DNA from: Piscirickettsiaceae bacterium CG07_land_8_20_14_0_80_44_28
GTDB taxonomy: Bacteria; Pseudomonadota; Gammaproteobacteria; Thiomicrospirales; Thiomicrospiraceae
DNA: 52,132 nucleotides
Assembly: GCA_002779995.1 (NCBI GenBank)
Contig: PEWX01000114.1
Coordinates: 1-52,132, forward strand
Direction: 5' to 3'
The notes below the pieces were generated by a model. That model had not been told where the DNA came from. It saw nothing but the letters and a program-made list of their open reading frames with translations, and ran no database searches. This document shows, in pieces, positions 1,128 through 51,892 of this stretch; position 1 is the first letter of the stretch, and each line of letters begins with the position of its first letter. A program made the position numbers and the translations under genes.

Positions 1128-2339
1128 ATGATTTATGCACAATCTGTTGAACCTTGGCAACCACAAAGCCTTTCGCCTATACAGGTGCCACTGGAAAATT
1201 GGCTGGCGCCGACTCAAGACAGTTATTTTTTTACCGATTTACATGCGGATGCTGAGGCGTTTTTACGCTCACTGAAATTGAGCCATTTGGTGACTTTGGA
1301 CAGCACTGTGTCCAATATCCAGTTAACCACCAAAGCCATGAGCGGCCGGATTATTATTGGGGGGGATTGTTTTGATAAGGGGCCAAGCAATTTACAATTA
1401 TTAAAGCTGATTCATCAGCTTCGACCCGCCGATCTAGTGATCTTGGCGGGCAACCATGATATTCGTCTTTATGCCGGATTAAGTGCGATGGATTTTATGG
1501 CGGATCCTTGTCAGGCACACTTTTTTGTGCGCATGGGGCGTAAGGTCATTAAATTGTTTGAAGAGGTTTATTTGACTTATTGCTCAAACTTAGCGGAAGT
1601 GACGCTGACAGATGCCGAAATTCGCGCCAAACTCTTTCCCGGCAAAGATTGGTCAAATCGGTTCCGGATTGATGCTAAACCGTTTTTATCGGCTAAAAAA
1701 ATCCATAAAGAATGCCAGCAAATCGCCCGTAAACAGCAGGATTTTACCCAGGCCTGGTCAGAATTAGGGTTTAATCTCAAACAACTCTACCAAGCTGTCG
1801 AACAAACGCGCCGTTTATTTATGGACGCTGAAGGCGAATTTGCGTGGTTTTTCAGTTCGCTCGATCTGCTCCATGTTTCCGGCAGTTATTGTTTTAGTCA
1901 TGCGGGGATGGATGATGAAATGGCGGAAAAACTCAGTCATCAAAGTGTGGCGGATTTGAATCATCAACTACACCAACATCTCCAAGCAGGCCATATTTTT
2001 CAGCTGTATTACAGCGCTTTTGGCAATGTGTTTCGCACCAAGTATCGTGAAAACGATTGGCCGCTTACCGAGCATGGTGCGGCACATTTAAAGCAGCGAC
2101 ATCTTTTTGCATTAGTCAACGGACACCGCAGTCACCTAGGCGGTCAGCAATTATTTTTTCGTCAAGGGCTGCTGCATTTTGAGTGTGATACCTTGTTGAA
2201 TGCCAACTGTCGTCAAAAATCAAACCGCCAATCTTTGGGAGAAGCTGTTACAATTTTCTATGCTGATGGTATGGTATCGGCTCTCAGTGGTGACTATCCC
2301 GCCACCAAGCAATTTCATCCAAAAGATTTAGGCAGGTGA
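1128..2339 (+). CDS. calcineurin-like metallophosphoesterase (PPP-type fold)
   Basis: A 403-residue protein. It starts at ATG 1128, two bases after the previous stop and behind GGGGA (1116-1120). The di-metal phosphoesterase motifs appear in order: D-x-H in 'FTDLHAD' (Asp37, His39), GGDCFDKG (Asp80), GNHD (108-111), a later His in 'FSHAG' and the closing 'NGHRSH'. These motifs match metal-dependent Ser/Thr-phosphatase-like enzymes. It is larger than a minimal phosphatase (about 250 residues) because of a helical insert between GNHD and FSHAG. With the preceding histidine phosphatase it gives the operon two phosphatases of unrelated folds beside two kinase folds. The substrate is unknown; a phosphoprotein, or a product of the operon's own kinases, is plausible. 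Confidence 0.82.
   Translation: MIYAQSVEPWQPQSLSPIQVPLENWLAPTQDSYFFTDLHADAEAFLRSLKLSHLVTLDSTVSNIQLTTKAMSGRIIIGGDCFDKGPSNLQLLKLIHQLRPADLVILAGNHDIRLYAGLSAMDFMADPCQAHFFVRMGRKVIKLFEEVYLTYCSNLAEVTLTDAEIRAKLFPGKDWSNRFRIDAKPFLSAKKIHKECQQIARKQQDFTQAWSELGFNLKQLYQAVEQTRRLFMDAEGEFAWFFSSLDLLHVSGSYCFSHAGMDDEMAEKLSHQSVADLNHQLHQHLQAGHIFQLYYSAFGNVFRTKYRENDWPLTEHGAAHLKQRHLFALVNGHRSHLGGQQLFFRQGLLHFECDTLLNANCRQKSNRQSLGEAVTIFYADGMVSALSGDYPATKQFHPKDLGR
1748..1757. repeat. CCAGGCCTGG iterated palindrome
   Basis: Perfect 10-bp core inside the metallophosphoesterase gene, encoding 'QAW'. The T/A-rich flanks are weak at this copy. Confidence 0.85.
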
Positions 2340-2343
2340 CCTT

Positions 2344-2655
2344 ATGGCGAAAAAGACTCCTTATTTTGAACATGAATCCTTACAAGATAAGGATACGATT
2401 ATCAGTTATTTAAAAGCCATTACTCAGGGGTTTAAAAAAGGTGCCATTAAATTCAGCGATGAAGATGAGAATTTTGTGCTCACCCCTCAGCCATTTGCTA
2501 ACTTAAAAATTAAGGCCACTCAAAGCAAAAAAGGCCAAACGCTGAATATTAAAATCAATTGGTCTTCGGATCAGGATGAAGATGCCGATGACACGCCCTT
2601 GTTTATTGACCCAAAACATCCAAAAAAATCCAACAGATCCAAAAAGTCCTCTTAA
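2344..2655 (+). CDS. small amphi-Trp-domain-like protein
   Basis: A 103-residue acidic/lysine-rich protein starting four bases after the metallophosphatase stop. The N-terminal half (YFEHESLQDKDTIISYLKAI) is helical. It is followed by strands ending 'LKIKATQSKKGQTLNIKINW', an alternating amphipathic strand closing with Trp, as in the amphi-Trp domain reported beside GAK-type kinase genes. The last 25 residues are a charged tail rich in Lys, Ser and Pro. It has no catalytic motif, signal peptide or membrane segment. A role as a phosphoacceptor or adaptor for the neighbouring kinases is inference only. Family assignment is by eye and moderately sure. Confidence 0.6.
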   Translation: MAKKTPYFEHESLQDKDTIISYLKAITQGFKKGAIKFSDEDENFVLTPQPFANLKIKATQSKKGQTLNIKINWSSDQDEDADDTPLFIDPKHPKKSNRSKKSS

Positions 2656-2673
2656 CGCTGATTCGCTGCCATT

Positions 2674-4308: not shown

Positions 4309-5221
4309 ACTGTCTCCTTATAAAATCGGCGTGGTTGGCATTCCGGGCAAATGGTCTACCGAAGTATTAGCAGATGAAATTGAAGCCCTGACCGGGTTTC
4401 GATTGGTGATTGACATAACGCAGGTGGTTGCGGATTTGGCGACCCCGTCAATCAAATATCAAAACCACTGTTTATGTGATTTGGATGCCATTGTGATTAA
4501 AAAGATCTCTCAAACCTATAGCCCTGCTGTTATTGACCGTTTGGAGATTTTACGATTTGTTGAAAAATGTGGTGTACAGGTTTTTTCAAAACCACAGGAA
4601 ATTATTCGCTTAGTCGATCGACTAAGCTGCACCATCTCGCTGACCAAAGCCCATATTCCGATGCCGCCAACCGTGATTACCGAAAGCCTGGAGGCCGCGT
4701 TTGACACAGTTCAGACGTTTGGCGAAACCATTTTAAAACCGCTGTTTTCCACCAAAGCGCGTGGCATGGCGTTACTTAACCCTAAAACCGCTCACAAAAC
4801 ACTTAAAGCGCAATTACAAAGTTATTATGAAGAACACGGTTTTTTCTATTTACAAAAAAAATTAACCTTGCCCGGAAAAGATATGGGGCTGATGTTTCTC
4901 GGCGGGGAATACCAAGGGGCTTATGCGCGAGTGGGTAATAGCCACAGTTGGAACACCACCATTCACTCCGGCGGAAAATATGCCCAGGCCTTTCCGTCGG
5001 ATGAAATTATTGAAATGGCGCATCAAGCTCAGTTGGTTTTTGATTTAAGTTACACCACGGTCGATATTGCTGAAACCGAACAAGGTCCAGTGTGTTTTGA
5101 GGTCTCTGCTTTTGGTGGATTTAAAGGCGCACAAGAAGGCTTAAACATCAATATGGCCGCACGCTATGCGGCCTATGTCATTGAACAACTCCACCCCACT
5201 GAGACTGATAAAACGGCATGA
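4301..5221 (+). CDS. ATP-grasp enzyme, GAK-system type
   Basis: A 306-residue protein whose ATG overlaps the end of the kinase gene. The ATP-grasp features are the Lys in 'ETILKPLFSTKARGMALL' (central-domain lysine and the small glycine-containing loop), 'FYLQKKL' near the adenine site, and the C-terminal metal-binding 'VCFEVSAFGGFKG...LNINMAARYA' with its Glu/Asn pair. Layout and size resemble RimK-like ligases, which join a carboxylate to an amine with ATP. ATP-grasp next to an HprK-like kinase is the defining pair of the GAK gene set. The product of this reaction has not been defined to my knowledge. The gene ends by overlapping the next start by 4 bases (ATGA). Confidence 0.78.
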   Translation: MTKLSPYKIGVVGIPGKWSTEVLADEIEALTGFRLVIDITQVVADLATPSIKYQNHCLCDLDAIVIKKISQTYSPAVIDRLEILRFVEKCGVQVFSKPQEIIRLVDRLSCTISLTKAHIPMPPTVITESLEAAFDTVQTFGETILKPLFSTKARGMALLNPKTAHKTLKAQLQSYYEEHGFFYLQKKLTLPGKDMGLMFLGGEYQGAYARVGNSHSWNTTIHSGGKYAQAFPSDEIIEMAHQAQLVFDLSYTTVDIAETEQGPVCFEVSAFGGFKGAQEGLNINMAARYAAYVIEQLHPTETDKTA

Positions 5222-6339
5222 ATAACGCTCAAACCCTCACACAACATTTCAATCAAACCTTGCAAGATCAACCCTGCTTGTCCAAAGGGCTCTTGTTGCC
5301 TTTAACCGATTATGCCATTGCCATTCGCTCTAATTCTCACGAATTGCTGACAGAACTAGCTGACTATTTTCACCTTGAAATGACTTTACAGTTGGATTCA
5401 GCAGAGATAGCCGTTCAAGCGATTGAAACGGATGATTATTTAAAGGTTGGCAAACACTGGCCAGACTGGGCGCGTGAAGCCGGCAAAACCGGGCGCAAAG
5501 AAACGTTTGTGGATGCCGAAGACGGCCGATTTATTTATAAAATCAAAACCGGCATGGTATTTTGGCAAAATGCTGAAAGGCCTTGTGCTTTTGGCCCAAT
5601 TGTGCAGCACCCGAATCAAGTGATTAACTTTGTATTGAGTCAATATTTAAACCACCACTTACGCCAAGGTTGGTTACTGGGACATGCTGCCGGCTTACAA
5701 ATTGATGGCAAAGGTGTTGCGATTGCCGGTTTATCCGGGGGGGGTAAATCGACTCTGATGCTGCATCTGCTAGAACAAGGGCAGCACTTTATTAGCAATG
5801 ATCGCCTGTTAATAACGCCTCAAACGACCGAAAAAACGCCCAGGCCTGGGCGTTTTTGGATGCGTGGCATCCCAAAACAGCCACGCATCAACCCTGGCAC
5901 GGTTGTTCACAATGCCAGATTACAATCGTTGATTCCGGCAGAAAGACGTCACCAATTATTGGCGCTATCAGCGTCTAAACTGCGCCATTTAGAAGAAAAG
6001 GTTGATGCGGATGTTGATCAGCTGTTTCATGCCGGATGTACGCAATCGCAAGCGCCATTGCATTTATTGGTGGTGTTAAATTGGTCAACCACAACAAATC
6101 AACCCACCCAAGCAAGACTCACCAACTTGGCACAAAGCCCTGAATTGCTGCCGGCATTAATCAAAAGCGCCGGGCCTTTTTTTGCGGACACTCAGGGGCA
6201 GTTTTTGGCAAATCAAACCCGACCCGATGCAAACGCTTATCTAACCCAATTGGCCAACCTGCCTTGCCTGGAAATTTCCGGTCACCTGGATTTCTTGCAG
6301 GCTCGGGATGCGGTTTTAGAACAGATTCAATCCCTTTGA
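5218..6339 (+). CDS. HprK-related kinase (GAK-system type B)
   Basis: A 373-residue P-loop protein. The Walker A-type motif GLSGGGKST lies at residues 171-179, followed by 'FISNDRLLI' (Ser193-Asn194-Asp195) at the place of the HprK catalytic acidic segment. True HprK phosphorylates Ser46 of HPr, but no HPr/PTS gene lies here, and the family known as HprK-related kinase B is of unknown substrate. The N-terminal 150 residues are not recognised. A perfect 26-base palindrome (5832-5857) sits inside the coding region and encodes 'KTPRPGRFW', which may be an insertion tolerated in a loop. The last 13 bases overlap the convergent YihY gene. Last gene of the six-gene operon. Confidence 0.78.
   Translation: MNNAQTLTQHFNQTLQDQPCLSKGLLLPLTDYAIAIRSNSHELLTELADYFHLEMTLQLDSAEIAVQAIETDDYLKVGKHWPDWAREAGKTGRKETFVDAEDGRFIYKIKTGMVFWQNAERPCAFGPIVQHPNQVINFVLSQYLNHHLRQGWLLGHAAGLQIDGKGVAIAGLSGGGKSTLMLHLLEQGQHFISNDRLLITPQTTEKTPRPGRFWMRGIPKQPRINPGTVVHNARLQSLIPAERRHQLLALSASKLRHLEEKVDADVDQLFHAGCTQSQAPLHLLVVLNWSTTTNQPTQARLTNLAQSPELLPALIKSAGPFFADTQGQFLANQTRPDANAYLTQLANLPCLEISGHLDFLQARDAVLEQIQSL
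5832..5857. repeat. CCAGGCCTGG repeat in a perfect 26-bp palindrome
   Basis: The core CCAGGCCTGG (5840-5849) is extended on both sides to a perfect palindrome running from an A-run to a T-run. It lies inside the HprK-like gene and is the most complete of the ten copies in this window. Confidence 0.9.
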
Positions 6340-9657: not shown

Positions 9658-10494
9658 TTATGGCAAGGGGTGAGGAATCAACACCTGTTGTTGTAACAAG
9701 CCATCAAGCGCCGGCAAGGCCAATTCTGCCAAGGTGGTCGCTGGCTGTTGCATTGTCTCGGCCATCTCTGCAATCACATCTTTAATGGGGTCTGACCCCT
9801 TTTCTTCTTTAATGGGGTCTGACCCCTTTTCTTCTAAACGTGTTAATAAGTCATAGAGCAAGGGCGTCAGTGCCATAAACTGCACTTGATCGTTCACATC
9901 TCGATAAGCCAATAAAGTGGTCAGCGTTTCGGGTTGCTCAGGGTTGGCATTTTCGGCACTGATTTGATCAACAGGCCATTGATAGGCTAACGGAATAGCC
10001 ACCGGCGATAAACGATAACCACTTTGCAGATTGGCTTGAGGCGGCGATACTAAATAAATGCCTTCTTGTTCATCAACCAACAATGCCAATTCAATCCATT
10101 CATAATGCGCCAGCTCTAGTAAATATGGAGGGTCATCATCGCGTGGCTGATAGTCCGCTTGCAAAAATAATAAGAACTCTTGCCCTACTTCATGGAACAA
10201 CGGGGTTCGCGCCTTATGTTTTTGCATATATTCTCGAATCAACTCTAACCAGCGTGTTTCACCCAACACCGAATAGGTAACGGGAAACAAGTTACTAAAG
10301 AAACTATTGACATTATTGAAGAATAATTGCTCATAAGCGGCTAGGCGTCTGGGCTCTATTTCGAGCGCTATTTTACCCAGGCCTGGGTGTTTTTGCGGCC
10401 GATAAGGCTGGTTTTGCGGGTCACGAATATGGGCGGCAAAGAGCGTTTGTAATTGCTGAAAGCGCGGTAAGTCGGTAAATGTGGTGCTAGACAT
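9658..10494 (-). CDS. hvfC: DUF2063 family protein (HvfC/BufC-like partner of DUF692)
   Basis: A 278-residue protein with the DUF2063 layout: 'RFQQLQTLFAAHIRDP' at the N-terminus, 'AYEQLFFNNVNSFFSNLFPVTYSVLG' and 'PPYLLELAHYEWIEL'. DUF2063 proteins are encoded beside DUF692 enzymes and are thought to help present the peptide substrate. Its start overlaps the DUF692 stop by 8 bases, so the two are translationally coupled. Residues 221-238 are an in-frame 9-residue duplication (KGSDPIKEE type) encoded by two 27-base repeats that carry GGGGTCTGACCCC. A CCAGGCCTGG repeat lies near the N-terminal coding part. The 'DNA-binding' label often given to this family is not supported by anything seen here. 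Confidence 0.8.
   Translation of the reverse strand: MSSTTFTDLPRFQQLQTLFAAHIRDPQNQPYRPQKHPGLGKIALEIEPRRLAAYEQLFFNNVNSFFSNLFPVTYSVLGETRWLELIREYMQKHKARTPLFHEVGQEFLLFLQADYQPRDDDPPYLLELAHYEWIELALLVDEQEGIYLVSPPQANLQSGYRLSPVAIPLAYQWPVDQISAENANPEQPETLTTLLAYRDVNDQVQFMALTPLLYDLLTRLEEKGSDPIKEEKGSDPIKDVIAEMAETMQQPATTLAELALPALDGLLQQQVLIPHPLP
9781..9834. repeat. two tandem 27-bp units, each with the palindrome GGGGTCTGACCCC, inside a gene
   Basis: Exact 27-base units at 9781-9807 and 9808-9834. Each contains GGGGTCTGACCCC (9787-9799 and 9814-9826). Because 27 is divisible by three, the reading frame of the DUF2063 gene is kept. The motif is related to the triplet repeat at 143-179. Confidence 0.92.
10377..10386. 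repeat. CCAGGCCTGG iterated palindrome
   Basis: Perfect core extended to CCCAGGCCTGGG with a T-run (GTGTTTTT) on the right. It lies inside the DUF2063 gene, encoding 'HPGLGK' on the minus strand. Confidence 0.88.
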
Positions 10495-11347
10495 CTTGTG
10501 CTCCCCGAGTGCGTTGACTTTGACGAATTTGATTCATTTCCGACTGCAATTCTGCAAGCGGTGGAATATTAAAATCGCGCTCTAGCAAAGTCGGTTGAAT
10601 GCCATGCGCTGCGTAGGTTTGATCTAACAAGTCCCAAACCACGGGTTTGACAGCTTCGCCATGGGTATCAATTTTTAAGTCGTCCGCTTCATCAAAGTGC
10701 CCTGCCATGTGCAAATACATCAACCGTTCCGTGGGCATGGTTTCAATAAAGGCCAAAGGATCATATTGCTGATGATTAATGCTGTTAACAAAGGTATTGT
10801 TGACATCCAATAACAGCCCACAATCGGCTTCTGAGACCACCGCATTGATAAATTCGACTTCCGAGAGCTCATTGGTGGGCAACGCATAAAAAGAGACATT
10901 TTCCACCCCGATCGGCTGCTCTAATAAATCTTGTACTCTTTGAATCCGTTTTGCAACATAGTCTACCGCTTCTTCGGTAAACGGAATCGGCATCAAATCA
11001 TACAAATGGCCAGAATCCCCGCAATAGCTTAAATGTTCGGTATAAAGCGGCACTTGATGGGTTTTAAAAAACGCTTTTAGTTCCAGAATGAAAGTCTCAT
11101 CCAGTGGATGTGGGCCGCCGATATCAAGGGATAAACCATGACACACCAATGGATAACGCTCGGAAAGCTGTCGCAAAGCCCGACCTTGTCGGCCACCAAA
11201 ATGCAGCCAATTTTCAGGCGCGACTTCCAAAAAATCCACCACAAAATCGGGTGTATTGAGCAGCTCATCAAAAAAATCTCGCCTTAATCCCAAACCGACC
11301 CCTTGGACTTTTGGGCTGGCAAAACGGGGCGCTATTGAGTGTGACAT
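10487..11347 (-). CDS. hvfB: DUF692 multinuclear non-heme iron oxidase (MNIO; HvfB/BufB-like)
   Basis: A 286-residue TIM-barrel protein of the DUF692 family: 'GLGLRRDFFDELL', 'VDFLEVAPENW', 'LVCHGLSLDIGGPHPLD', 'YTEHLSYCG', 'PIGVENVSFYA', 'LLLDVNNTFVN', 'YLHMAGHF'. The His, Asp, Glu and Asn residues in these motifs are the iron ligands and active-site residues of the family. Members modify cysteines in ribosomally made peptides, for example methanobactin and copper-binding bufferins. I start at 11347, where AGGGA precedes the ATG; a start at 11404 would add 19 atypical residues. It lies 90 bases downstream of cusA on the same strand. No adjacent DUF2282-type (HvfA/BufA) precursor is seen. The only Cys-rich exported protein nearby is at 17904-18266. 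Confidence 0.85.
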   Translation of the reverse strand: MSHSIAPRFASPKVQGVGLGLRRDFFDELLNTPDFVVDFLEVAPENWLHFGGRQGRALRQLSERYPLVCHGLSLDIGGPHPLDETFILELKAFFKTHQVPLYTEHLSYCGDSGHLYDLMPIPFTEEAVDYVAKRIQRVQDLLEQPIGVENVSFYALPTNELSEVEFINAVVSEADCGLLLDVNNTFVNSINHQQYDPLAFIETMPTERLMYLHMAGHFDEADDLKIDTHGEAVKPVVWDLLDQTYAAHGIQPTLLERDFNIPPLAELQSEMNQIRQSQRTRGAQDV

Positions 11348-11437: not shown

Positions 11438-14400
11438 TTAAACGGTTTTAGCCGATGTCGTTGCCAGTTGCTGGTTAAACCGGGTGATTTCAGTGCGCTT
11501 GATCAGACTGTAAACCGCCGGCAGGACCACCAGCGTCAGCAAGACTGCACTGATCATGCCGCCGACCATCGGCGCCGCGATTCGGCTCATGACTTCTGAT
11601 CCGGTTCCCGATCCATACAGAATGGGCAGCAATCCGAGAATAATCACCGAAACGGTCATCATCACGGGGCGAACCCGCAACCCGGCTCCTTGTATGAGGG
11701 CTTGCTGATAAGCGGATGGCGAAATCGGTTGCCCAGAGTCGTGTGCCTTTTTCTTGAGTGCTTTCAGCGCTAAATTTAAATACACTAGCATGATCACACC
11801 AATTTCGACGGAAACCCCGGCAAGCGCAATAAAGCCAACCCCAACGGCAACGGAAAAGTTAAAGCCCTCTAAATAAATCAGCCAAAGCCCGCCAATCATC
11901 GCCATCGGCAGCGTGGTGATAATAACAGCCACTTCGCTAAAGGCTCTGAAGTTGAGATAAAGTAGCACAATAATAATCGCCAATGTCAGCGGTAGTACAT
12001 AACTTAATTTTTCTTTGGCTCGCTCCATATATTCATATTGCCCTGCCCAAGTCAGTGAATAACCAGCAGGCAGTTCCAGTTCGCGATCTAACACCGTTTT
12101 GGCCTGATTCACGTAACTGCCAACATCAATGTCTTCAATATCAATAAAGGTCCAGCCATTCAATCGGGCGTTTTCACTTTTTATGCCTGGTGGGCCATTT
12201 TCAATGCGAATATCTGCCACATCGCCCAAGGTAATATGCTGACCGTTTGGTGTGACGATGGGTAAGCGATCCAATTGTTTGGGAGAATCTCGATAATCTT
12301 GTGGATACCTGAGATTAACGGGATAACGCTCTTGCCCTTCTATCGTTTGCGTGACATTCATGCCGCCAATCGCAGTGGCAACGATTTGTTGAACATCGTC
12401 GATATTCATGCCAAAACGGCTGGCTTTTTCTCGTGCTATATCAATTTTAATATAACGTCCTCCTGCGACTCTTTCGGAATAAACCGAGGCGGTTCCCTCA
12501 AGGTTCGATAAGATTTTTTCAATGTCCTGACCCAGCGTTTGAATCACATTCAAGTCAGGCCCGGCCACTTTGATGCCAACGGGCGTTTTAATCCCTGTTG
12601 CCAGCATGTCAATGCGGGTTTTAATCGGCATCACCCAGGCATTGGTTACCCCGGGAAACTGAACAAGTTGGTCAAGTTCTTTTTTCAAATCTTCGCTGGT
12701 GAGGCCTTCACGCCATTGTGATCGAGGCTTTAACTGGATAAAGGTTTCAATCATGGTTAAGGGTGCGGGATCGGTCGCGGTTTCTGCTCGCCCCACTTTC
12801 CCAAACACATTTTGGACTTCCGGCAGGGTGCGAATCAGTTTATCGGTTTGCTGTAACAATTCGCGCGCCTTACCAATGGAGATGCCAGGATAGGTGGTTG
12901 GCATATACATTAAATCGCCCTCGTCTAAGGGCGGAATAAATTCACTGCCGATTTTATCGACGGGGTAAAAGCCCAATACCGTGACAACGACTGCGCCCAG
13001 CAGCGTCATTTTAGGGAACTTTAATGCCCGTTTGAGCACGGGCAGATACATTGCAACCAACAATCGGTTGAGGGGATTCTTTTTTTCCGGCGTCACTTTG
13101 CCTCTGATAAAATACCCCATTAACACCGGGATCAAGGTAACGGCCAGACCAGCCGCCGCGGCCATGGCATAGGTTTTGGTAAACGCCAAAGGTGCGAACA
13201 TGCGACCTTCTTGCGCTTCCAAAATAAACACGGGTAAAAAAGAAACGGTGATAATCAGCAAACTGAAGAAAAGCGCGGGGCCCACTTCAGCGGCAGATTC
13301 CGCAACGACTTGCCAGCGGTTTTCATTGGTCAGCGGGGTTTTTTCCATGTGTTTATGCAGATTTTCAATCATCACGATGGCGCCATCCACCATAGCGCCG
13401 ATGGCAATGGCAATCCCCCCTAATGACATAATATTGGCATTAATGCCTTGTGCATACATCACCATAAAGGAAACCAAAATTCCCAATGGTAGGGTAATGA
13501 CAGCGACGAGCGAAGACCTGATATGGAATAGAAAAGCCACACAAACTAAGGTCACCACCGCCAGCTCTTCGAGCAGTTTCGTCCAAAGATTTTCGACTGC
13601 GCGCTCAATCAGCCCGGAACGATCATAAACAGGAACAATCTCAACGCCATCCGGTAATGATTTTTTGAGTGAATCGATTTTTTCTTTGATGCCTTGAATG
13701 GTTTTTTGAGCATTTTCACCATAGCGCATTACCACGACGCCACCAACCACTTCGCCTTCGCCATTGAGTTCGGCAACCCCACGGCGCATTTGCGGCCCTA
13801 TATTCACCTCAGCCACATCCCCAATCGTCAGTGGAACGCCCCGCTCATTGGTTCCCAGCGGAATGCTTTGAATATCGGACACCGATTGAATATAACCGGT
13901 AGCGGTTACCATATACTCTGCTTCAGCCATTTCTAAAACAGAAGCGCCCATTTCTGCATTACCCCGCTTGAGTGCTGTCTGAATATGACTTAACGGGAGG
14001 TTATAGGCACGAAGTTTATTGGGATCAACCTGCACCTGATATTGCTTTACCATGCCACCAATCGCGGCAACTTCAGAAACGCCGTCTACGGTCTGCAATT
14101 CATATTTCAAAAACCAATCTTGAATCGACCTTAATTGACTCAAATCATGCTGACCTGTCTTATCCATCAAAGCATAAATATAAACCCAGCCCACCCCTGT
14201 TGCATCGGGGCCCAATTCAGGCCTGGCCGATTCTGGTAGGCTGGAGGCGGCTTGATTCAAATATTCTAGCACCCGACTTCGAGCCCAATAGAGATCGGTA
14301 TCATCGTCAAAAATAATGTATACATAGGAATCCCCAAAGAAAGAATACCCCCGAACTGTTTGTGCGCCGGGTACCGATAACATAGCAGTGGTTAAAGGAA

Positions 14401-21582: not shown

Positions 21583-22838
21583 GACTTTATCTCCATTTGA
21601 CGCTGTAATGCGTGTTCTAAAATAGCCAGGCCTGCCTGTAATTGGTCTTGCGGAATGGTTAAAGGCGGAATCAATTTAATCACCTGCCCACCAACGCCAC
21701 AAGGTCCGAATAACAAACCGTGATCGAAACAATCTCGTGCGACCGCTTTTGCCAAAGTGCCGTCTTTGACATCCAACGCTTGCATCATCCCTTTGCCTCG
21801 CACACAAAAACCCTGCTCTGAATAGCGTTCCGCCAACCCGTGCAAGTGGTGTTGCATGATCTGTCCTTTGGCACGGGTTTGTTCCATCAGTTCATCATCT
21901 TCAAAAAAACGTAAGGCCTCTCGCCCGGCCACAAATGAAAGATTTTGACCACGGAAAGTGCCGGTATGTTCGCCAGGCTTCCAATGATTGTCATGTTCCG
22001 GTTTAACTAAATTCATCGCCATTGGGGTTCCCAATCCACCAATACCTTTTGCCAAAGTAACAATATCGGGATCAATGCCCATTCCTTCAAAGCTGAAATA
22101 GTGCCCGGTTCGACCACATCCGGCCTGAATATCATCCACGATCAATAAGGCGCCTAAATCACGAGCCAATCTCTGTAACGCTTGCAACCATTCTGCCGAA
22201 GCGACATTCACCCCGCCCTCGGCTTGAATGGCTTCAACAATAAACGCCGCAGGTTTTTCGGCACCACCGGAGGAATTTTCATACAAGGCTCTCAAGGTAT
22301 CGAGGCTTTCAATGCCGCCGCCCTGATTACTTTCAAAAGGCCAGTGAGATACCATCGTTAAAGGCACGCCGGCCGCATTGCGAAACACTTCATTCGCGGT
22401 ACAAGCTAAAGCCCCCAAGGTCATGCCATGAAATCCTTGGCTAAAAGCAACCACCTCTTTTCGACCCGTGACGCGACGTGCTAATTTCAGCGCCGCTTCC
22501 ACCGCATTGGTTCCGGTCGGCCCCATAAATTGAAGCTTATAGTCCATATTTCGGGGTTTCAAAATGGTCTCGACAAACCCCTTAATAAATTCTCGTTTTG
22601 CGCCAGTCATCATATCCAGACTGTGGAGCACACCATCGTTTTGAATATATTCAATAATTGCTGCTTTAAGTTTAGGGTGGTTATGTCCAAAATTCAGTAC
22701 CCCTGCACCCGCATAGAAGTCGATATACTCTTTGCCATTTTCATCCGTCTGTTTGGCATTTTCGCCTTTAACAAAAACAGCCGGATAAGATCGTGCATAG
22801 GCACGGATTTCGGACTCATAACTTTCAAACCAATCCAT
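21579..22838 (-). CDS. doeD: diaminobutyrate transaminase of ectoine degradation
   Basis: A 419-residue class-III PLP aminotransferase closely resembling EctB-type diaminobutyrate transaminases: 'DFYAGAGVLNFGHNHP', 'GPTGTNAVEAALKLARRVTGR', 'FHGMTLGALA', 'IVDDIQAGCGRTG' and the PLP lysine in 'TLAKGIGGLG'. In ectoine synthesis EctB forms diaminobutyrate. In degradation, DoeD converts diaminobutyrate to aspartate semialdehyde, feeding DoeC. No ectA or ectC is in the window and the neighbours are degradation genes, so I call it DoeD. A ribosome site (GAAGGAGAAAGAAAG) precedes the ATG. Confidence 0.85.
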   Translation of the reverse strand: MDWFESYESEIRAYARSYPAVFVKGENAKQTDENGKEYIDFYAGAGVLNFGHNHPKLKAAIIEYIQNDGVLHSLDMMTGAKREFIKGFVETILKPRNMDYKLQFMGPTGTNAVEAALKLARRVTGRKEVVAFSQGFHGMTLGALACTANEVFRNAAGVPLTMVSHWPFESNQGGGIESLDTLRALYENSSGGAEKPAAFIVEAIQAEGGVNVASAEWLQALQRLARDLGALLIVDDIQAGCGRTGHYFSFEGMGIDPDIVTLAKGIGGLGTPMAMNLVKPEHDNHWKPGEHTGTFRGQNLSFVAGREALRFFEDDELMEQTRAKGQIMQHHLHGLAERYSEQGFCVRGKGMMQALDVKDGTLAKAVARDCFDHGLLFGPCGVGGQVIKLIPPLTIPQDQLQAGLAILEHALQRQMEIKS

Positions 22839-25519: not shown

Positions 25520-25529
25520 CCAGGCCTGG
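25520..25529. repeat. CCAGGCCTGG iterated palindrome
   Basis: Perfect core in the sdhE/chemoreceptor gap, directly next to the sdhE stop codon, with TTATTTTT on the right. One of only two intergenic copies. Confidence 0.88.
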
Positions 25530-29088: not shown

Positions 29089-29355
29089 CAAAAGTCTCCT
29101 GTTAAAAAGTGTAAGAAATATTGGCGCAAGCAATTAACAAGCAATGAATTTTAGGGTTTTAGTATAAACCATGCTGCCTTTTATTAAATCAAAACTTACC
29201 CTGTTTTTGAATATTTACTCAAATTTAAATTTTCTGCAAAAATTACCGTAAAAATACAGTATAGTAAATTCGCAATCAGCCAATACTAAAACGTAACACA
29301 ACGCTAATTATGACTTAAAATCGACCAGGCCTGGTCATTTTTAAAGGGACAAACC
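29089..29355. promoter_or_regulatory. divergent promoter region between sdhC and the acetolactate synthase gene
   Basis: A 267-base AT-rich region that must drive sdh leftward and the acetolactate synthase gene rightward. TATAGT at 29260-29265 is a possible -10 for the rightward gene, but no matching -35 is obvious. A CCAGGCCTGG palindrome lies just before the ribosome site AAAGGGAC. Confidence 0.5.
29323..29336. repeat. CCAGGCCTGG iterated palindrome in a 5' leader
   Basis: Core 29325-29334, extended to the 14-bp palindrome GACCAGGCCTGGTC, with AAAA to the left and ATTTTT to the right. It sits about 20 bases before the acetolactate synthase ATG. As RNA it could form a short hairpin followed by U residues, but the same element inside genes argues for a DNA-level repeat. 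Confidence 0.88.
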
Positions 29356-35725: not shown

Positions 35726-38038
35726 CTATTTGATCGAGGGCGTTTGATGCAAAAACCACCAGGCCTGGCCCAGTGCAATGCCGCCATCATTGAGCGGCGT
35801 GTGTTGTTGAAAATAGAGCGGCTGAGATTGATTCTTAAAATACTTTATAAGCTGTTGTAGTAACACTTTATTTTGAAAAACCCCACCGGAAATAACCACC
35901 GGTAAATCCGGCTTTTGCTTGGCCAAGTATGCCACTAAATGGATCTGCATATTGATAAATCGACTTACCATTTTTGACTGACTCAGCGCCGCTTGCTGAT
36001 CTCGGCATAGCTGTTCAATCATTGGATTCAAATCGATTTGATCGCGATTTATCTTAAAATCATACGCTTCTTTGACTGAAAAATCATACAACTCTGCCAT
36101 TAATAAACCACTCTGGCCTTCATAATCCAACTGTTGGTTTAAACCCATCAAGCTGGCCACCCCATCCCAAATCCGCCCCATTGAGCTGGTAGCCGGACAA
36201 TTGAGAGGCTTTTGATAGAGCTGATAAAGTTGACGAATCTCCAATTCGCTAAACGCTTTAACCGTTGGCGACGTCATTTCCAACACCGTTTCCAGCGCAT
36301 ACCGCTCAAACAACCAAGCTAAAGCAATGCGACGCGGTTGGCGAATGGCCTTTTCTCCGCCCAATAATAGCGTGGGACGCAGATGCCAAAGCCGTTCAAA
36401 CCCTTGAACGGACGCCAGCAAAACCTCCCCGCCCCAGATGGTTTTATCCAAGCCATAGCCGCTGCCATCCCAACTAAAACCCAGTACAGGCTGAGTCAGC
36501 CCGTGTTCTGCCATACACGCCAATAGATGCGCATAATGGTGTTGCACCCGATACAGTGACGGCTCAGCATCAGTCTGTTTTTGCGCCCATTTGGAACTGG
36601 CATAGCTTGGATGTTGATCACTCACCCAATGCGTCGGCTCAATCGACGTTAATTCGGATATGCGGCTAATTTGATCGCTAAACCGCTGTTGTGCCGCCAA
36701 CGAATGCAAGTCTCCGACTTCAGGAGACATCAAAAGTTGTTGATTTCGGCCAATCACAACGGTGCTCTTTTGCTGCGCGCCCACCGCTAAAAACGACCAG
36801 GCCTGGTGGTTTTTGGCCGCAAACGACAGCGGAAAAGGCGCTAACCCGCGTGCCATTCGTAAGGTAACGGTTTTACCCAAAACGCTTTGCACCACACTGT
36901 CATCACACGGGTTGATAATCTCACGATTAAAATCCAGCACGCCATCAACCACTGGCGCATCGTTACGCGCTAGCTTCTGAAAGATCATTTTGGCATCGGT
37001 CAAAATAGGTTCACCGGAAAGATTCGCACTGGTCGCGACTAACGGAACCGTCACAGATTCAAACAATAAATGTTGTAAGGGCGTATAGGCCAAAAAGAGG
37101 CCTATGTGCGTCAACCCAGGCGCAACGGCATTACTCAACGATTGAGCTAACGCCGTGTCCTGACGGCGCTTCACTAACACAATCGGGTGCGCAAGCGAAC
37201 ACAGCAACTGGATTTCATGCGCTGACAACTCCGCCAGTTGTTGTGCCATTTCCAAGTCGCGGCACAAAATTGCAAAGGGTTTGGCCGGCCGTCGCTTACG
37301 TTCGCGCAAGGCTTGAACCGCCGCAGTTTGCGTCGCATCTGCCATCAAATGAAAGCCGCCAATCCCCTTAAAAGCGACCAGGCCTGCTTGTTGCAACCTG
37401 TTTGCCACTTGTTGAATGGCCGCTAACCCTTTTGAAACCAAACGCTGTTGCGCATCATAATAAACTAATTCCGGCCCACAATCCGGGCAACAAATCCCTT
37501 GGGTATGAAAACGCCGATTATGGGAATCCTGATAATCTTGCTGACACGGTTTGCACAAAGCAAAATCCGCCATAGCGGTATTGGCACGGTCATAAGGCAT
37601 GGCGCGCAACATGGAATAACGCGGTCCACAGTCTGAACAACTGATAAACGGATCGTGATAGCGTCGATTATTTGGGTCGTTAAATTCTGCTAAACAGGCA
37701 TCACAGAGGGCTAAATCGACTGGGATTTCAAGCGTATTCGTCACCGACTCAGCAGATTGGCTGGGGAGAATTTGAAAGTCTTTAAAGTCGGCCAACGGTA
37801 ACACCGTTTGCGTCATCTGCTCAATCTGCGCTTGGGGGGACAGTTGGTGCTGTAATCGTTGTTGAAACTCGGTCAGCCGACTTTCCAACCCTTGTAGATG
37901 TAACACCACCGCTTGCCCGGCATTATAGACCGACCCCACCAATGCCAACTGCTGCGCCTGCTGAAACACCCAAGGCCGAAACCCCACGCCTTGCACCTTG
38001 CCGGTTAAAATATAGTGATGATGTTGGCGTTCAGTCAC
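35726..38038 (-). CDS. hypF: carbamoyltransferase HypF
   Basis: A 770-residue maturation enzyme. Residues about 8-95 form the acylphosphatase domain ('GKVQGVGFRPWVFQQA'). Two zinc-finger motifs follow ('CDACLAEF...CSDCGPRYS' and 'CKPCQQDY...CCPDCGP'), then the YrdC-like domain and the Kae1-like carbamoyltransferase domain ending 'VISGGVFQNKVLL'. It uses carbamoyl phosphate and ATP to load HypE, starting cyanide-ligand synthesis. The start is GTG 38038 behind AGGAAA. It is the last gene of the hydrogenase operon, 18 bases after the protease gene. Two perfect CCAGGCCTGG repeats and one near-match lie inside this gene. Confidence 0.94.
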   Translation of the reverse strand: MTERQHHHYILTGKVQGVGFRPWVFQQAQQLALVGSVYNAGQAVVLHLQGLESRLTEFQQRLQHQLSPQAQIEQMTQTVLPLADFKDFQILPSQSAESVTNTLEIPVDLALCDACLAEFNDPNNRRYHDPFISCSDCGPRYSMLRAMPYDRANTAMADFALCKPCQQDYQDSHNRRFHTQGICCPDCGPELVYYDAQQRLVSKGLAAIQQVANRLQQAGLVAFKGIGGFHLMADATQTAAVQALRERKRRPAKPFAILCRDLEMAQQLAELSAHEIQLLCSLAHPIVLVKRRQDTALAQSLSNAVAPGLTHIGLFLAYTPLQHLLFESVTVPLVATSANLSGEPILTDAKMIFQKLARNDAPVVDGVLDFNREIINPCDDSVVQSVLGKTVTLRMARGLAPFPLSFAAKNHQAWSFLAVGAQQKSTVVIGRNQQLLMSPEVGDLHSLAAQQRFSDQISRISELTSIEPTHWVSDQHPSYASSKWAQKQTDAEPSLYRVQHHYAHLLACMAEHGLTQPVLGFSWDGSGYGLDKTIWGGEVLLASVQGFERLWHLRPTLLLGGEKAIRQPRRIALAWLFERYALETVLEMTSPTVKAFSELEIRQLYQLYQKPLNCPATSSMGRIWDGVASLMGLNQQLDYEGQSGLLMAELYDFSVKEAYDFKINRDQIDLNPMIEQLCRDQQAALSQSKMVSRFINMQIHLVAYLAKQKPDLPVVISGGVFQNKVLLQQLIKYFKNQSQPLYFQQHTPLNDGGIALGQAWWFLHQTPSIK
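35759..35768. repeat. CCAGGCCTGG iterated palindrome
   Basis: Perfect core near the 3' end of hypF (encoding 'GQAWWF'). On the minus strand it reads into TGGTTTTT, so here the T-rich side follows the gene's direction. Confidence 0.87.
36789..36814. repeat. CCAGGCCTGG repeat in a 26-bp near-perfect palindrome
   Basis: Core 36797-36806 inside hypF, extended symmetrically from AAAAAC to GTTTTT with one mismatched pair. It encodes 'NHQAWSFLA'. The same architecture appears at 5832-5857. Confidence 0.9.
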
Positions 38039-43170: not shown

Positions 43171-44184
43171 CTAACAAATTCTTGGTAACAGTTCACCTTG
43201 AGGCAGCTCTAAAACCCGCTGTGCACCCCAAGCGCTGCTTAAAATGACCAGGCCTGGTTGAAATTCCAGCACCTCACCAATCACAGCGGCATTTTCACAA
43301 AAGTCAAATTGATGCAATATAGCCAAGGCGTCACTGGCCGCACTGGCCGGCACACTTAAAACAAAGGTGCCTTCATTGGCAAAATCATAGGCTTCAAATC
43401 CCAGCAATTCGCAAATCCCTTGCACCGACTCCGAAATGGGCACTTGCGCTTCTTGCACATCAATCGACACCGCAGACGCTTGCGCCCACTCATTCAACAC
43501 CGCCGCCACCCCCCCGCGCGTCGCATCTCTCAGCGCATGAAGTGGCACGCCCGCATCCAATAACGCCTCAACCGCCGGCCAAACACTGGTGCAATCACTT
43601 TCAATCGGCGTTTGTAATTGCAAGGTTTCTCGTTCTGCCAAAATCACCGCGCCGTGGCGGCCAATGTCCTGCGAAACAATAATGACATCGCCCGCCTGCA
43701 ATCCATGTGCTGTGGGAGCGGTTTGCGTTGGAAGCGCCAACTGCCCAATCCCCGATGTATTAATAAATACTTGATCCACCGCGCCTTTGGGCACCACTTT
43801 AGTATCGCCACACACCACTTTCGCGCCGGTCTTTTTTAACTCTTGCGCCATACTCTGCACCAAACGTTCTAGCGTTTTCCACGGCAAGCCTTCTTCAATC
43901 ATAAAAGCACAACTTAAATACAAAGGCTGAGCCGCCATCATCGCCAAATCATTCACCGTACCCGCCACCGCGAGTTTGCCAATATCGCCCCCTTTAAAAA
44001 ACAACGGGGTCACGGTAAAGCTGTCGGTGGTAAACGCTAAAGCACCGCTGGTTTCAAACACCGCCGCGTCCTCAGCCTGCTTTAATAAGTCATTATCAAA
44101 ATAACGATAAAATAATGTCTGAATCAATTGTTGGGTTTCAACGCCACCGCCACCGTGACTCAAGCTAATATTGCCCTGACTCAC
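43171..44184 (-). CDS. hypE: carbamoyl-dehydratase HypE
   Basis: A 337-residue ATP-dependent enzyme of the PurM/AIRS fold: 'SLSHGGGG', 'TTDSFTVTPLFFKGGDIGKLAVAGTVNDLAM', 'RDATRGGVAAVLNEWA'. The C-terminal PRIC motif puts the thiocarboxamide Cys at the last residue. It dehydrates the carbamoyl group from HypF to a thiocyanate, the cyanide donor. The start is GTG 44184, overlapping the hypD stop as GTGA, with AGGAG seven bases upstream; a longer start inside hypD has no support. A CCAGGCCTGG repeat lies in the C-terminal coding part ('PGLVIL'). Confidence 0.94.
   Translation of the reverse strand: MSQGNISLSHGGGGVETQQLIQTLFYRYFDNDLLKQAEDAAVFETSGALAFTTDSFTVTPLFFKGGDIGKLAVAGTVNDLAMMAAQPLYLSCAFMIEEGLPWKTLERLVQSMAQELKKTGAKVVCGDTKVVPKGAVDQVFINTSGIGQLALPTQTAPTAHGLQAGDVIIVSQDIGRHGAVILAERETLQLQTPIESDCTSVWPAVEALLDAGVPLHALRDATRGGVAAVLNEWAQASAVSIDVQEAQVPISESVQGICELLGFEAYDFANEGTFVLSVPASAASDALAILHQFDFCENAAVIGEVLEFQPGLVILSSAWGAQRVLELPQGELLPRIC
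43248..43257. repeat. CCAGGCCTGG iterated palindrome
   Basis: Perfect core inside hypE, flanked by AAAATGA on the left; the right side lacks the T-run. Confidence 0.85.
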
Positions 44185-45353
44185 TTTACTGCTCCTTGAG
44201 AACGGCCAGGTATTTTCGGCACATTGGCATAGCGATAATAAGCATGACACGCGCCTTCACTCGACACCATACAACTCCCCAAAGGCCTTTGTGGATCACA
44301 GCCTCGGCCAAAAACGGCACAATCTTTCGGCTGAGCAATGCCGCGCAAAATGTCTCCGCAAATACACATTTTATGATCGTCCAAAGCTTCATTGGACAAA
44401 TGATGGGCAAACACCTGTTCCGCATCCCACTGAGCAAATTCTGGCCGCAATTGCAGCGCACTGAATGGAATGTCACCCAACCCCCGCCAACGAAACGTCG
44501 CTCGCGGTTGTAAAAACTGTTCCATCAACTGCTGAGCTTTAACATTCCCTTCCCAATTGACAGCACGGCTATATTGAATTTGCAATCGCGGCTGATTCGC
44601 CAAAACCTGCTCAACAATCATTAACAAACTTTGCATCACATCCACCGGCTCGAAACCACTCACCACAATCGGCAGCCCGTAGCTATCCACTAAAGGTTGA
44701 TAAATTTTAGCGCCCGCAATCACACTGACATGAGAGGGTCCAATTAACGCCTCAATGCGACAATCGTCATCCTCCAGCAAAGCGGATACAGCGGGCGGCA
44801 CCAGTACATGATTAATATGAAAAAATAAATTGGTCAGCCCCAATTGCTGCGCCTGCTGCAAGACCACTGCGGTCATGGGCGTGGTGGTTTCAAAACCGAT
44901 GGCAAAGAAAACAACCTGTTTATCCGGGTGTTGTTGGGCGATTTGAATGGCATCCATCGGCGTGTAAAGCGCTCGCACATCATGCCCTTGCGCGCTGACT
45001 TTCGCCAAAGAGGTTTTAGATCCAGGGACTCGAATCATATCGCCCAGCGTCAGCAAAATGGTGTTCTCCATTTGCGCCAACGCAATCGCCTGATCAATGC
45101 GTTCTTTGGGCATAATGCACACAGGACAACCGGGGCCATGAATAAACTCAATTAGCTCAGGCAAAAGCGACTTCAAACCATATTTCATCACCGTATGAGT
45201 ATGACCGCCGCAGGCTTCCATAATCCGTAAAGGACGAGACAAATATTGCGCCCGTTCCGTAATCTGTTCGGCCAACGCCTGCAACGTCTTGGGGTCACGA
45301 AACCCCTCATACAACTGCTGCAATGCTAAAGCGTGATCTTCAGTTTGACGCAT
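44181..45353 (-). CDS. hypD: hydrogenase maturation scaffold HypD
   Basis: A 390-residue iron-sulfur protein: 'IMEACGGHTHTVMKYGLKSLLP', 'HGPGCPVCIMPKERID', 'FFAIGFETTTPMT', 'VVSGFEPVDVMQ' and a C-terminal cluster region 'MCICGDILRGIAQPKDCAVFGRGC'. With HypC it carries the iron while CN and CO are attached. The start is at 45353 or three codons upstream at 45362; both lie within the end of hypC, so the two are translationally coupled. Confidence 0.94.
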   Translation of the reverse strand: MRQTEDHALALQQLYEGFRDPKTLQALAEQITERAQYLSRPLRIMEACGGHTHTVMKYGLKSLLPELIEFIHGPGCPVCIMPKERIDQAIALAQMENTILLTLGDMIRVPGSKTSLAKVSAQGHDVRALYTPMDAIQIAQQHPDKQVVFFAIGFETTTPMTAVVLQQAQQLGLTNLFFHINHVLVPPAVSALLEDDDCRIEALIGPSHVSVIAGAKIYQPLVDSYGLPIVVSGFEPVDVMQSLLMIVEQVLANQPRLQIQYSRAVNWEGNVKAQQLMEQFLQPRATFRWRGLGDIPFSALQLRPEFAQWDAEQVFAHHLSNEALDDHKMCICGDILRGIAQPKDCAVFGRGCDPQRPLGSCMVSSEGACHAYYRYANVPKIPGRSQGAVK

Positions 45354-48467: not shown

Positions 48468-48469
48468 TT

Positions 48470-50096: not shown

Positions 50097-50119
50097 GCCC
50101 GCCTAAAAGGAAACCCATT

Positions 50120-50815
50120 ATGGATTTTTTATCCATTACCTCCGCTGAAATACAAGCGCTGTTACTCACCTTTAAACTCGCCCTCTACACCACAATGATT
50201 CTTGTGGTGTTTGGCGCGCCTTTGGCGTGGTGGCTGGCTTTTACCCAGTCGCGATGGGAGGCGGTGGTGTCTACCTTGGTGGCTTTGCCTTTGGTGCTGC
50301 CGCCAACGGTACTGGGTTTTTATCTGTTGATTATTCTCGGCCCCTATGGTGCCGTGGGCGGCACGCTGGAAGCCATGGGACTGACGCATCTTGCGTTTAG
50401 TTTTGAAGGGATTTTGATTGGGTCGGTGATTTTTTCGCTCCCCTTTGCCATCCAACCCATGCGCGATGCCTTTGCGGCCATGCCACAAGCCCCTATTCAA
50501 GCGGCGGCCACTTTAGGCGCAGGACCGATGGATCGCTTTTTTAGCGTTATTGTTCCCTTAGCGCGTGGTGGTTTATTAACAGCAATTGTCATTTCGTTTG
50601 CACATACTTTAGGCGAGTTTGGCGTGATTGCCATGATGGGCGGTTCGATTCCCGGCGAAACCAAAGTGGTCTCCATTGCCATTTACGACTACACCCAAGG
50701 CATGGATTACGCTGCAGCCCACAGATTGTCGGCCATTTTATTGTTTTTATCCTTTGTGATTTTAGCGACTTTTTACGCCATTAACCGCCGCTTTATGGCG
50801 CCCATCAAGCTTTAG
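50120..50815 (+). CDS. modB: molybdate ABC transporter permease ModB
   Basis: A 231-residue permease with five membrane helices. Typical sequences are 'LPLVLPPTVLGFYLL', the EAA-loop region 'AAATLGAGPMDRFFSVIVPLARGGLLTA' and 'AHTLGEFGVIAMMGGSIPGET'. It forms the membrane channel, lies 23 bases after modA and is followed by modC after 9 bases. Confidence 0.95.
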   Translation: MDFLSITSAEIQALLLTFKLALYTTMILVVFGAPLAWWLAFTQSRWEAVVSTLVALPLVLPPTVLGFYLLIILGPYGAVGGTLEAMGLTHLAFSFEGILIGSVIFSLPFAIQPMRDAFAAMPQAPIQAAATLGAGPMDRFFSVIVPLARGGLLTAIVISFAHTLGEFGVIAMMGGSIPGETKVVSIAIYDYTQGMDYAAAHRLSAILLFLSFVILATFYAINRRFMAPIKL

Positions 50816-50824
50816 GAGGTTGCC

Positions 50825-51892
50825 ATGATTGAATTTAACCTGCAATTGTCCTACCCCGGGTTTGACTTTCAAACGGGTGATGTGCGCTTATCGGGCGAGG
50901 GAATAACCGCTATTTTTGGCCCGTCGGGTTGTGGTAAAACGACCCTTCTTAGAACGCTTTCCGGTTTGACGCGCGCGCAAGGCTACGCCAAACTGCATGG
51001 CCAAGTGTGGCAAGATGCCAACCAATTCGTGCCGGTACACAAACGCCGCATTGGCATGGTGTTTCAAGATGCCGCGCTGCTGCCGCACCTGAGCGTGCAA
51101 GGTAATTTGGATTACGCCCTCAAACGCTCAGGCATGGGTATGAGCCAAGCCAAAAAAGAACAAGCCCGTTGGGTCGAACTATTAAAACTCGAAACCTTGC
51201 TTGGCCAACCTGTACTCACCCTCTCTGGCGGACAAAAACAACGGGTTGGTATTGCGCGTGCGTTATTGTCCAATCCGCAACTTTTAATGCTTGACGAACC
51301 CATGTCCGCATTGGATTGGCGCACCAAAAACGAACTGATTCCCCTAATCAAAGAAGTGGTGGAAGCCTCAAAACTGCCCACCCTGCTCATTACCCATTCA
51401 CCTGAAGAAGTCGAGCGTTTGGCCGATGATGTGCTGTTACTCAACCAAGGGCGTGTTGAACAAGTTGAAACCCTGCAACAAACCCTGTCGCGCGCCAATT
51501 CACCATTGTTTGACGAACAAGGCGCGGTGTCGGTATTAATGGGTTTGCCAGGCCTGGTAGAAATGGGGTTGCGAACCATCAAAGTGGGTCAAGACAATCT
51601 TTATATCAGTCAAACGCACGCTATCCACACACCCGACGTGCGCATTCGAGTTTTGGCAAGAGATGTTAGCTTAGCGCTGTCTGACCCAAAAGAGCTGAGT
51701 ATCGTCAACCATTTACAGGTCACTATTAAAGAACTCATCCCACAAGGCGAACACCGAATGTTAGCACGATTACACCTACAAGATGGCCAACACCTCTTCG
51801 CCGAAATCACCCAACACTCCGCCCAACGCCTAACCCTACAACCAGGCCTGGTCGTTTTTGCACTGATTAAATCCGTCGCACTGGCGGAATAA
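50825..51892 (+). CDS. modC: molybdate ABC transporter ATPase ModC
   Basis: A 355-residue ATPase: Walker A 'GPSGCGKTT' near residue 36, Q-loop 'MVFQDAALLPHL', signature 'LSGGQKQRVGIARALL', Walker B 'LLMLDEPMSALD' and H-loop 'LLITHSPEE'. The C-terminal TOBE domain (about 285-355) binds oxyanion for feedback inhibition. Preceded by GGAGGTTGCC. Two CCAGGCCTGG repeats lie in the C-terminal coding part, encoding 'LPGLVEM' and 'QPGLVVF'. Confidence 0.95.
   Translation: MIEFNLQLSYPGFDFQTGDVRLSGEGITAIFGPSGCGKTTLLRTLSGLTRAQGYAKLHGQVWQDANQFVPVHKRRIGMVFQDAALLPHLSVQGNLDYALKRSGMGMSQAKKEQARWVELLKLETLLGQPVLTLSGGQKQRVGIARALLSNPQLLMLDEPMSALDWRTKNELIPLIKEVVEASKLPTLLITHSPEEVERLADDVLLLNQGRVEQVETLQQTLSRANSPLFDEQGAVSVLMGLPGLVEMGLRTIKVGQDNLYISQTHAIHTPDVRIRVLARDVSLALSDPKELSIVNHLQVTIKELIPQGEHRMLARLHLQDGQHLFAEITQHSAQRLTLQPGLVVFALIKSVALAE
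51548..51557. repeat. CCAGGCCTGG iterated palindrome
   Basis: Perfect core inside modC; flanks lack the A/T-runs. Confidence 0.85.
51842..51851. repeat. CCAGGCCTGG iterated palindrome
   Basis: Perfect core at the 3' end of modC with TCGTTTTT on the right, matching the common right arm. Confidence 0.88.

Follow-up and report, generated by a model that had tools for sequence, protein, structure and literature searches.

An iterated palindrome and its species-specific dialects in Piscirickettsiaceae genomes as candidate DNA-uptake-type sequences

The palindrome, its abundance and its flanks

Contig PEWX01000114.1 of Piscirickettsiaceae bacterium CG07_land_8_20_14_0_80_44_28, analysed here over its positions 1 to 52,132 (the window), carries ten perfect and three one-mismatch copies of the 10-base palindrome CCAGGCCTGG, which are dispersed over genes as different as hypF, an RND transporter gene and an ABC-transporter ATPase gene as well as over intergenic DNA (Table 1). 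The repeat had been pointed out in a sequence-only reading of the window; all ten perfect copies were confirmed where that reading had placed them, and the three single-mismatch copies exist as well, those at 21626 and 37378 as given and the third with its start at 14217 (TCAGGCCTGG) instead of 14219. It had also been claimed that eight copies lie in genes and in differing frames, and indeed eight of the ten perfect copies fall within open reading frames (ORFs), four of them in codon phase 0, one in phase 1 and three in phase 2.

Table 1. Copies of CCAGGCCTGG in the window (window positions), followed by a hairpin-like repeat located in other stretches
Feature	Position	Context
Perfect copy	1748..1757	ORF 1083-2339(+), peptide QAW, codon phase 2
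Perfect copy	5840..5849	ORF 5218-6339(+), peptide PRPG, phase 1; flanks aaaacgc / gcgttttt extend it into a longer perfect palindrome
Perfect copy	10377..10386	ORF 9658-10494(-), DUF2063/NGO1945-type protein, phase 0
One-mismatch copy TCAGGCCTGG	14217..14226	CusA/CzcA-type RND transporter ORF 11438-14602(-)
One-mismatch copy CCAGGCCTGC	21626..21635	ORF 21579-22838(-)
Perfect copy	25520..25529	Intergenic, upstream of chemoreceptor ORF 24313-25467(-)
Perfect copy	29325..29334	Intergenic, 22 bases before thiamine pyrophosphate (TPP)-enzyme ORF 29356-31026(+)
Perfect copy	35759..35768	hypF 35726-38038(-), peptide GQAWWFL
Perfect copy	36797..36806	hypF 35726-38038(-), peptide HQAWSFL
One-mismatch copy	37378..37387	hypF; amino acids of these codons conserved in relatives G006, G008 and G035
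Perfect copy	43248..43257	AIRS-domain ORF 43171-44250(-), phase 0
Perfect copy	51548..51557	ABC-transporter ATPase ORF 50825-51892(+), phase 0
Perfect copy	51842..51851	ABC-transporter ATPase ORF 50825-51892(+), phase 0; right flank tcgtttttg
Hairpin-like repeat CTCGCCTTAC/GTAAGGCGAG	L144 about 11328-11476; L021, L140, L151	

By base composition a given 10-mer should be rare in a stretch of this size, as had been supposed: the 13 matches with at most one mismatch compare with a mean of 0.93 and a maximum of 3 in 100 shuffles of the window. The same holds for the genome as a whole (2,279,771 bases in 122 contigs), which contains 404 copies of CCAGGCCTGG and not a single copy of the reversed control word. 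In a sample of 346,517 bases, made up of the window and 20 further stretches of the same genome, CCAGGCCTGG occurs 67 times, compared with a mean of 0.13 and a highest count of 3 for the 159 other 10-base palindromes with equal numbers of G/C and A/T letters, so that the counts are nowhere near expectation. Strong genome-wide over-representation of this kind is what would be expected of the DNA-uptake sequences (DUS) and uptake signal sequences (USS) through which some bacteria recognise DNA of their own kind. Strict conservation with few one-mismatch copies, another DUS/USS trait, was found too, with 19 one-mismatch versus 67 perfect copies in the window's own genome (G000), 60 versus 122 in the relative G002, where 37 of the 60 differ at the outermost base, and 25 versus 74 for a sister dialect described below, in G010. 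In stretches of G010 and G001 that align at 84-89% identity, all four sites compared were intact in both.

The A/T-run flanks noticed by the sequence-only reading are real by information content, whereas the 26-base architecture that it proposed is a tendency only. Over the 67 sites of the own genome, positions -8 to -4 are A-rich (0.36-0.86 bit each), position -3 is a pyrimidine and position -1 leans to purine, with the right side mirroring the left; 42 of these copies score high on both flanks, 19 on one and 6 on neither, at a background of 3.9% per flank. The same flanks recur in G002 (121 sites, sample GC content 50%), where positions -7 to -4 carry 0.46-0.88 bit, a weaker A/T peak follows at -14/-13, and at least one good flank accompanies 110 of the 121 sites and both flanks 69 (background 5.7% per flank), compared with at least one in 61 of 67 in the own genome. 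Weak additional A/T peaks lie about ten bases out from the motif.

Dialects across the family and their replacement in place

Judged by the window's SdhA, the nearest named relatives are Thiomicrorhabdus strains, a genus that NCBI puts in Piscirickettsiaceae and whose family in GTDB is called Thiomicrospiraceae; in this single-gene survey four of the 80 loci were titled Thiomicrorhabdus and the others came mostly from Betaproteobacteria or uncultured organisms. By whole-genome counts, 37 of 62 genomes of the family are rich in one of four cores, with 236-1173 copies each. The core CAGGCCTG reaches 236-1173 copies in 32 of the 62 and at most 74 in the others, CCAGGTTGGG occurs 364 and 400 times in G010 and G001 (at most seven elsewhere in the family), ACAGGCCGGG 537 and 321 times in G029 and G055 (at most 16 elsewhere), and ACCGGCCGGT, which is a palindrome like the own dialect, 1025 times in G031 (at most 15 elsewhere). 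In genera other than the window's, to which G031 also belongs, unbiased word counts returned AACAGGCCGGGT as the word of G029, and G021, G025 and G035 have kept CAGGCCTG with freer outer bases. Two further dialects emerged de novo from samples, namely CCAGGCTGGG in G003 (15 copies in 140 kb) and a CCAGGGGTGGG-type word in G007 (nine copies of the 10-mer CCACCCCTGG in 67 kb), which brings the genomes with a known dialect to 39. Stretch L024 of G003 was excluded from the de novo count, as another repeat swamped the words there, and included in another word count; its dense repeats, with 28 CAGACCTAGCCG-type words in the first 60 kb, had masked the dialect when words were first counted.

Species-specific dialects within one family, four of them counted and two sampled, are again a DUS/USS trait. 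Within the window's own genus, CCAGGCCTGG is present 367-677 times in six of the ten relatives, and the remaining four have none or one because they use other dialects (two CCAGGTTGGG, G003 CCAGGCTGGG and G007 the CCAGGGGTGGG type). The idea of a genome-wide palindrome holds for the window's species and fails across the family, in which this genus has three non-palindromic dialects and a different genus a fourth. In 51 genomes from other families of the class, each family being represented once, no more than 35 palindrome copies were counted per genome. Among the 23 family genomes without a known dialect, no comparable word appeared de novo in ten, from each of which 40-62 kb was sampled (112 kb for G012 and G018 together, which were pooled); G011 was represented by 9.9 kb and twelve had no useful sample.

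What do the dialects have in common? The asymmetric dialect of G010 (74 sites) is a sharp AAAATCTrCCAGGTTGGGk, whose left side is nearly invariant (A in 69-72 of 74 sites at -8 to -5) and whose right side fades within two bases, so the recogniser does not need a palindrome in all species. Within the genus the half in common is AAAA-W-Y-N-R-CCAGG, followed by CCTGG, TTGGG or CTGGG; the G007 word lacks one base of the spacer (AAAATCG-CCAGG-GGTGGG). A hairpin-like repeat, CTCGCCTTAC/GTAAGGCGAG, was also observed beside and between CCAGGTTGGG-dialect copies in G010, and again in G001 (Table 1).

Each species carries its own dialect at matching gene positions. When the ORFs of two palindrome genomes were compared with those of two CCAGGTTGGG genomes, the 140 best-hit pairs (52,169 codons) held 24 palindrome and nine sister-dialect sites in aligned codons, and four of these, at three loci, coincided within one base, as against 0.004 coincidences expected under even placement; for each ORF the test took the single best hit in a target genome as the orthologue with no further check of orthology, and it assumed sites to be even over codons. 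An additional coincidence of a palindromic with an asymmetric site was found between G002 and G010, and there is one locus where the codons concerned hold, in G003, the word of that genome's own dialect, CCCAGCCTGG. The protein tracks the DNA word, as in EKRPGLAELN versus EKRPNLADLK.

Placement in the genome and rival explanations

When ORFs are delimited simply as the longest ones, they take in 45 of 67 sites in the own genome, 58 of 122 in G002 and 26 of 74 in G010, although about 0.9 of the sequence is coding. In G010, 48 intergenic sites could be classified; 24 lie between convergent and four between divergent genes, figures for which no background was computed. Sites that do fall within proteins occupy variable positions: in alignments of at least 35% identity to a protein from another genome (68 alignments, 145 in-ORF sites), amino-acid identity was 0.47 versus 0.60, and gaps lay near the site in 21 of 68 versus 8%. 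Such permissive placement, with a preference for intergenic DNA, is shared with DUS and USS, as is the lack of a fixed orientation to replication. The check on strand and replichore bias that had been suggested gave no clear bias, with dialect copies divided 166/198 and 195/205 between the strands and G010 sites 42 versus 30 in favour of the G-rich strand; the sites are centred neither on the origin (ori) nor on the terminus (ter), and their chromosome-wide density is compatible with uniformity (dispersion 0.56, P 0.061, and 0.76, P 0.23). Closely spaced inverted pairs, one more DUS/USS trait, are present in the asymmetric dialect, and for a palindrome the question is void. In G010, nine pairs of sites lie within 300 bases of each other (2.4 expected), all nine are inverted and four have A/T runs outside; with up to two mismatches allowed, an inverted partner lies within 60 bases of 19 of the 74 sites and a direct partner of none. 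In the palindromic dialect, close pairs stay below expectation (3 versus 8.0 and 1 versus 2.9).

Several local peculiarities were followed up or recorded. A 22.7-kb motif-free stretch on contig C11 was considered as an island and rejected as such, ten of its ORFs belonging to ordinary metabolic and signalling families. Three viral contigs (35.6, 14.3 and 39.0 kb), picked for holding one, have one strict 18-mer each, where about 4.3, 1.7 and 4.7 would be expected at the density of G010 (56 per 460 kb), which may not be that of their hosts; on these few contigs, depletion of the word in prophages is a possibility. The prophage-like contigs L333 and L335/L336 have single perfect CCAGGTTGGG-dialect copies, at least one of them within a phage-like gene (KIYQVG), which indicates that phage DNA can hold the word. 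On contig C4 of the own genome, L011:149-1039 comprises 14 copies of GTTCTAGAAC in tandem, 65-70 bases apart and each part of a longer repeat, an array that is CRISPR- or attC-like in look.

Which of the candidate explanations fits these observations? The sequence-only reading had listed four, of which the DNA-uptake sequence is now favoured, while a HIP1-like or methylation palindrome and a tiny mobile element have become unlikely. A HIP1-like palindrome, kept by a cognate DNA methyltransferase or by a mismatch-repair effect, would be in keeping with the hundreds of copies of the palindromic own and G031 dialects, and its model in cyanobacteria has been linked to methyltransferases, which HIP1 tracks there (PMC4390886). 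CCAGGCCTGG itself contains two CCWGG sites, AGGCCT and GGCC. However, carriers are not palindromic throughout, given the four asymmetric dialects (three of this genus, one of a different genus), palindromic and asymmetric dialects occupy common orthologous sites, and A/T runs conserved 4-8 bases outside the core are unexpected for a methylase target; given the asymmetric sister versions and the conserved flanks, we regard this explanation as highly improbable. The footprint of a tiny mobile element would explain many identical short copies and the indels near some sites (21 of the 68 alignments above), yet the copies share 18-26 bases only and no larger unit, dialects swap in place, and an excess of indels is to be expected in variable protein regions. 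The orthologue alignment that had been proposed as a test of insertion versus substitution speaks in the same sense: at hypF site 35759, G006 has TCAGGCCTGG at the same codons, a one-base substitution without an indel. At site 36797 G006 has ACAGGCCTGG, and immediately upstream the two genes differ in length by 6 codons. The alignments examined showed no clean insertion with a target duplication, and with the single substitution in hypF and the in-place replacement of dialects a mobile origin is scarcely credible.

Could the words be intrinsic terminators, or an intergenic element of the repetitive extragenic palindromic (REP) type that has spread as a repeat, with palindrome and A/T flanks giving a hairpin and then U5? 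Computed folds do yield a hairpin plus U-run for the consensus palindromic copy (-12.6 kcal/mol) and -31.3 kcal/mol for a G010 inverted pair, and the sites are enriched between genes, half of the classified intergenic ones in G010 between convergent genes, again with no background computed. Against this, 45 of the 67 own copies are inside ORFs, an asymmetric copy on its own forms no hairpin (-1.2, z 0.97) and has a nearby inverted partner in just 19 of 74 cases, and the outer A/T runs that a terminator needs accompany only four of the nine close pairs. As an explanation of the repeat this is very unlikely; a secondary role in termination is the more likely case, as published for DUS and USS, whose words occur in terminators (PMC13020248). 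Rather more can be said for the site of a cytoplasmic chromosome-binding protein (a nucleoid-associated, segregation or recombination factor) with a specificity that drifted from one species to the next, so that the dialects would be co-evolved sites. The motif is long with helically placed A/T contacts (the weak peaks about ten bases out), its sites are dispersed round the chromosome, and a palindromic dialect suits a dimer. Nevertheless, the lack of ori/ter centring and of a clear replication-strand bias argues against MatP/Noc-like and Chi-like functions, and a Chi-like recombination site was rejected also because the motif is too long. Repeated rewriting of hundreds of sites is difficult to reconcile with an essential regulator and characterises uptake dialects, and inverted pairs and permissive placement are DUS traits, which leaves a chromosome-binding protein unlikely. 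A methylation palindrome, a mobile element and a plain terminator each fit worse than a DUS.

A probable uptake-type signal and its relation to known systems

Do carriers possess the machinery that an uptake sequence would serve? As in DUS/USS bearers, competence machinery is present in them. The check for competence genes that had been recommended found ComEC in 56 of the 62 family genomes and a PilB-sized ATPase in all 20 genomes examined. Of the 39 genomes whose dialect is known, 37 have ComEC, the two exceptions, G055 and G059, being fragmented drafts. Type IV pilin-like proteins occur in all 17 genomes inventoried; a conserved pilin operon adjoins what we read as a miaB-like gene in several loci and in some genomes includes a response regulator and a histidine kinase. 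A five-gene pilin cluster, which by sizes and order looks like the GHIJK genes of type II secretion, is absent from G001, G003, G007 and G010, part of the window's genus; its absence was discarded as a correlate of dialect, since G012 and G018 have the cluster and no known dialect.

Taken together, abundance, dialects, strictness, permissive placement, inverted pairs and competence genes match published DUS traits, and CCAGGCCTGG with its A/T-run flanks is therefore, by analogy, probably the local dialect of a DNA-uptake-type signal. The mechanism that we infer comprises a receptor, a biased uptake and an accumulation driven by that bias. A DNA receptor that is exposed on the cell surface and belongs to the machinery of natural transformation would recognise a word of about 18-26 bases, motif-bearing DNA would be preferentially taken up and recombined, and over generations the word would accumulate wherever the genome tolerates it; were the specificity of the receptor to change, the word would be rewritten in place as a new dialect.

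Several observations weigh against an uptake-type signal and should be set beside those in its favour. Copy numbers, at several hundred, are lower than in Neisseria. Even spacing was not seen, the coefficient of variation of 0.99 in a 362-kb stretch of G008 being random-like, nor was core-genome enrichment: densities in ORFs with family homologues versus those without were 0.131 versus 0.169, 0.127 versus 0.178 and 0.057 versus 0.074 per kb, in a test that is a crude proxy on partial genomes. ComEC is found also in most genomes without a known dialect and is thus not discriminating, and G002, with 673 copies, has only two T2SSE-type ATPases, neither of them PilT- or PilU-sized. Haemophilus, for its part, is not known to depend on PilT. 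A receptor cannot be named, because the three minor-pilin families of the operon, mostly acidic proteins, vary in line with the species tree and none is singled out; a search for the GspH domain (GspH/FimT type) passed its cut-off in three of the 62 genomes, none of which has a known dialect.

To our knowledge, uptake sequences have been described from Neisseriaceae and Pasteurellaceae, and how they originate and change has so far been judged on these two cases. Among the matches listed by our searches, which left subscription literature mostly outside, there was no earlier report of the words or of uptake sequences in these genera; no paper combining 'uptake sequence' with Thiomicrospira was found, and a further search gave one unrelated paper. 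By analogy, the repeats are best read as uptake-sequence-like ones that would add a third bacterial family, their main dialect being palindromic. Whether this amounts to a third, independently arisen uptake-specificity system in environmental sulfur oxidisers, with a palindromic main signal from which asymmetric dialects derive by change of one half-site, the AAAA-...-CCAGG half being kept, is in our judgement an evenly balanced matter. If so, asymmetric dialects born from a palindrome would be a series in which nature has re-specified a receptor. With a third family, in which at least six dialects are known, several of them from one genus and replaced in place at orthologous positions, comparisons could test how self-recognition in natural transformation originates and drifts and how its receptors co-evolve. 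A palindromic signal would in addition limit the ways in which a receptor can read DNA; it would be read equally both ways, possibly by a symmetric or dimeric receptor.

A close counterpart is the DUS of Neisseriaceae, whose receptor is the minor pilin ComP and which is likewise short, strict and present in hundreds to thousands of copies, with dialects that have a conserved part (PMC3630211, PMC2397512). According to one of these sources, DUS occupy permissive, often intergenic locations, are strongly conserved, form inverted terminator pairs, are enriched in the core genome and are absent from recently acquired genes (PMC2397512). The system considered here differs in its unrelated sequence, its longer motif with an A/T run, its palindromic main dialect and its fewer copies, as well as in that no ComP-like receptor was found and no core-genome enrichment emerged in the crude test. 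HIP1 of cyanobacteria is comparable as a highly iterated palindrome in and between genes with variants between species (PMC4390886), but asymmetric dialects and conserved A/T flanks set the present motif apart from it. The USS consists of a core and an A/T-rich flank, in this respect like the present motif. Further likenesses to the Pasteurellaceae system, for which ComN/PpdA is the predicted receptor (ComN in PMC12616744), are the dispersed copies, a share of terminators that contain the word (PMC13020248) and the existence of dialects (PMC12616744); the cores are different, and the motif described here is palindromic in most of its carriers.

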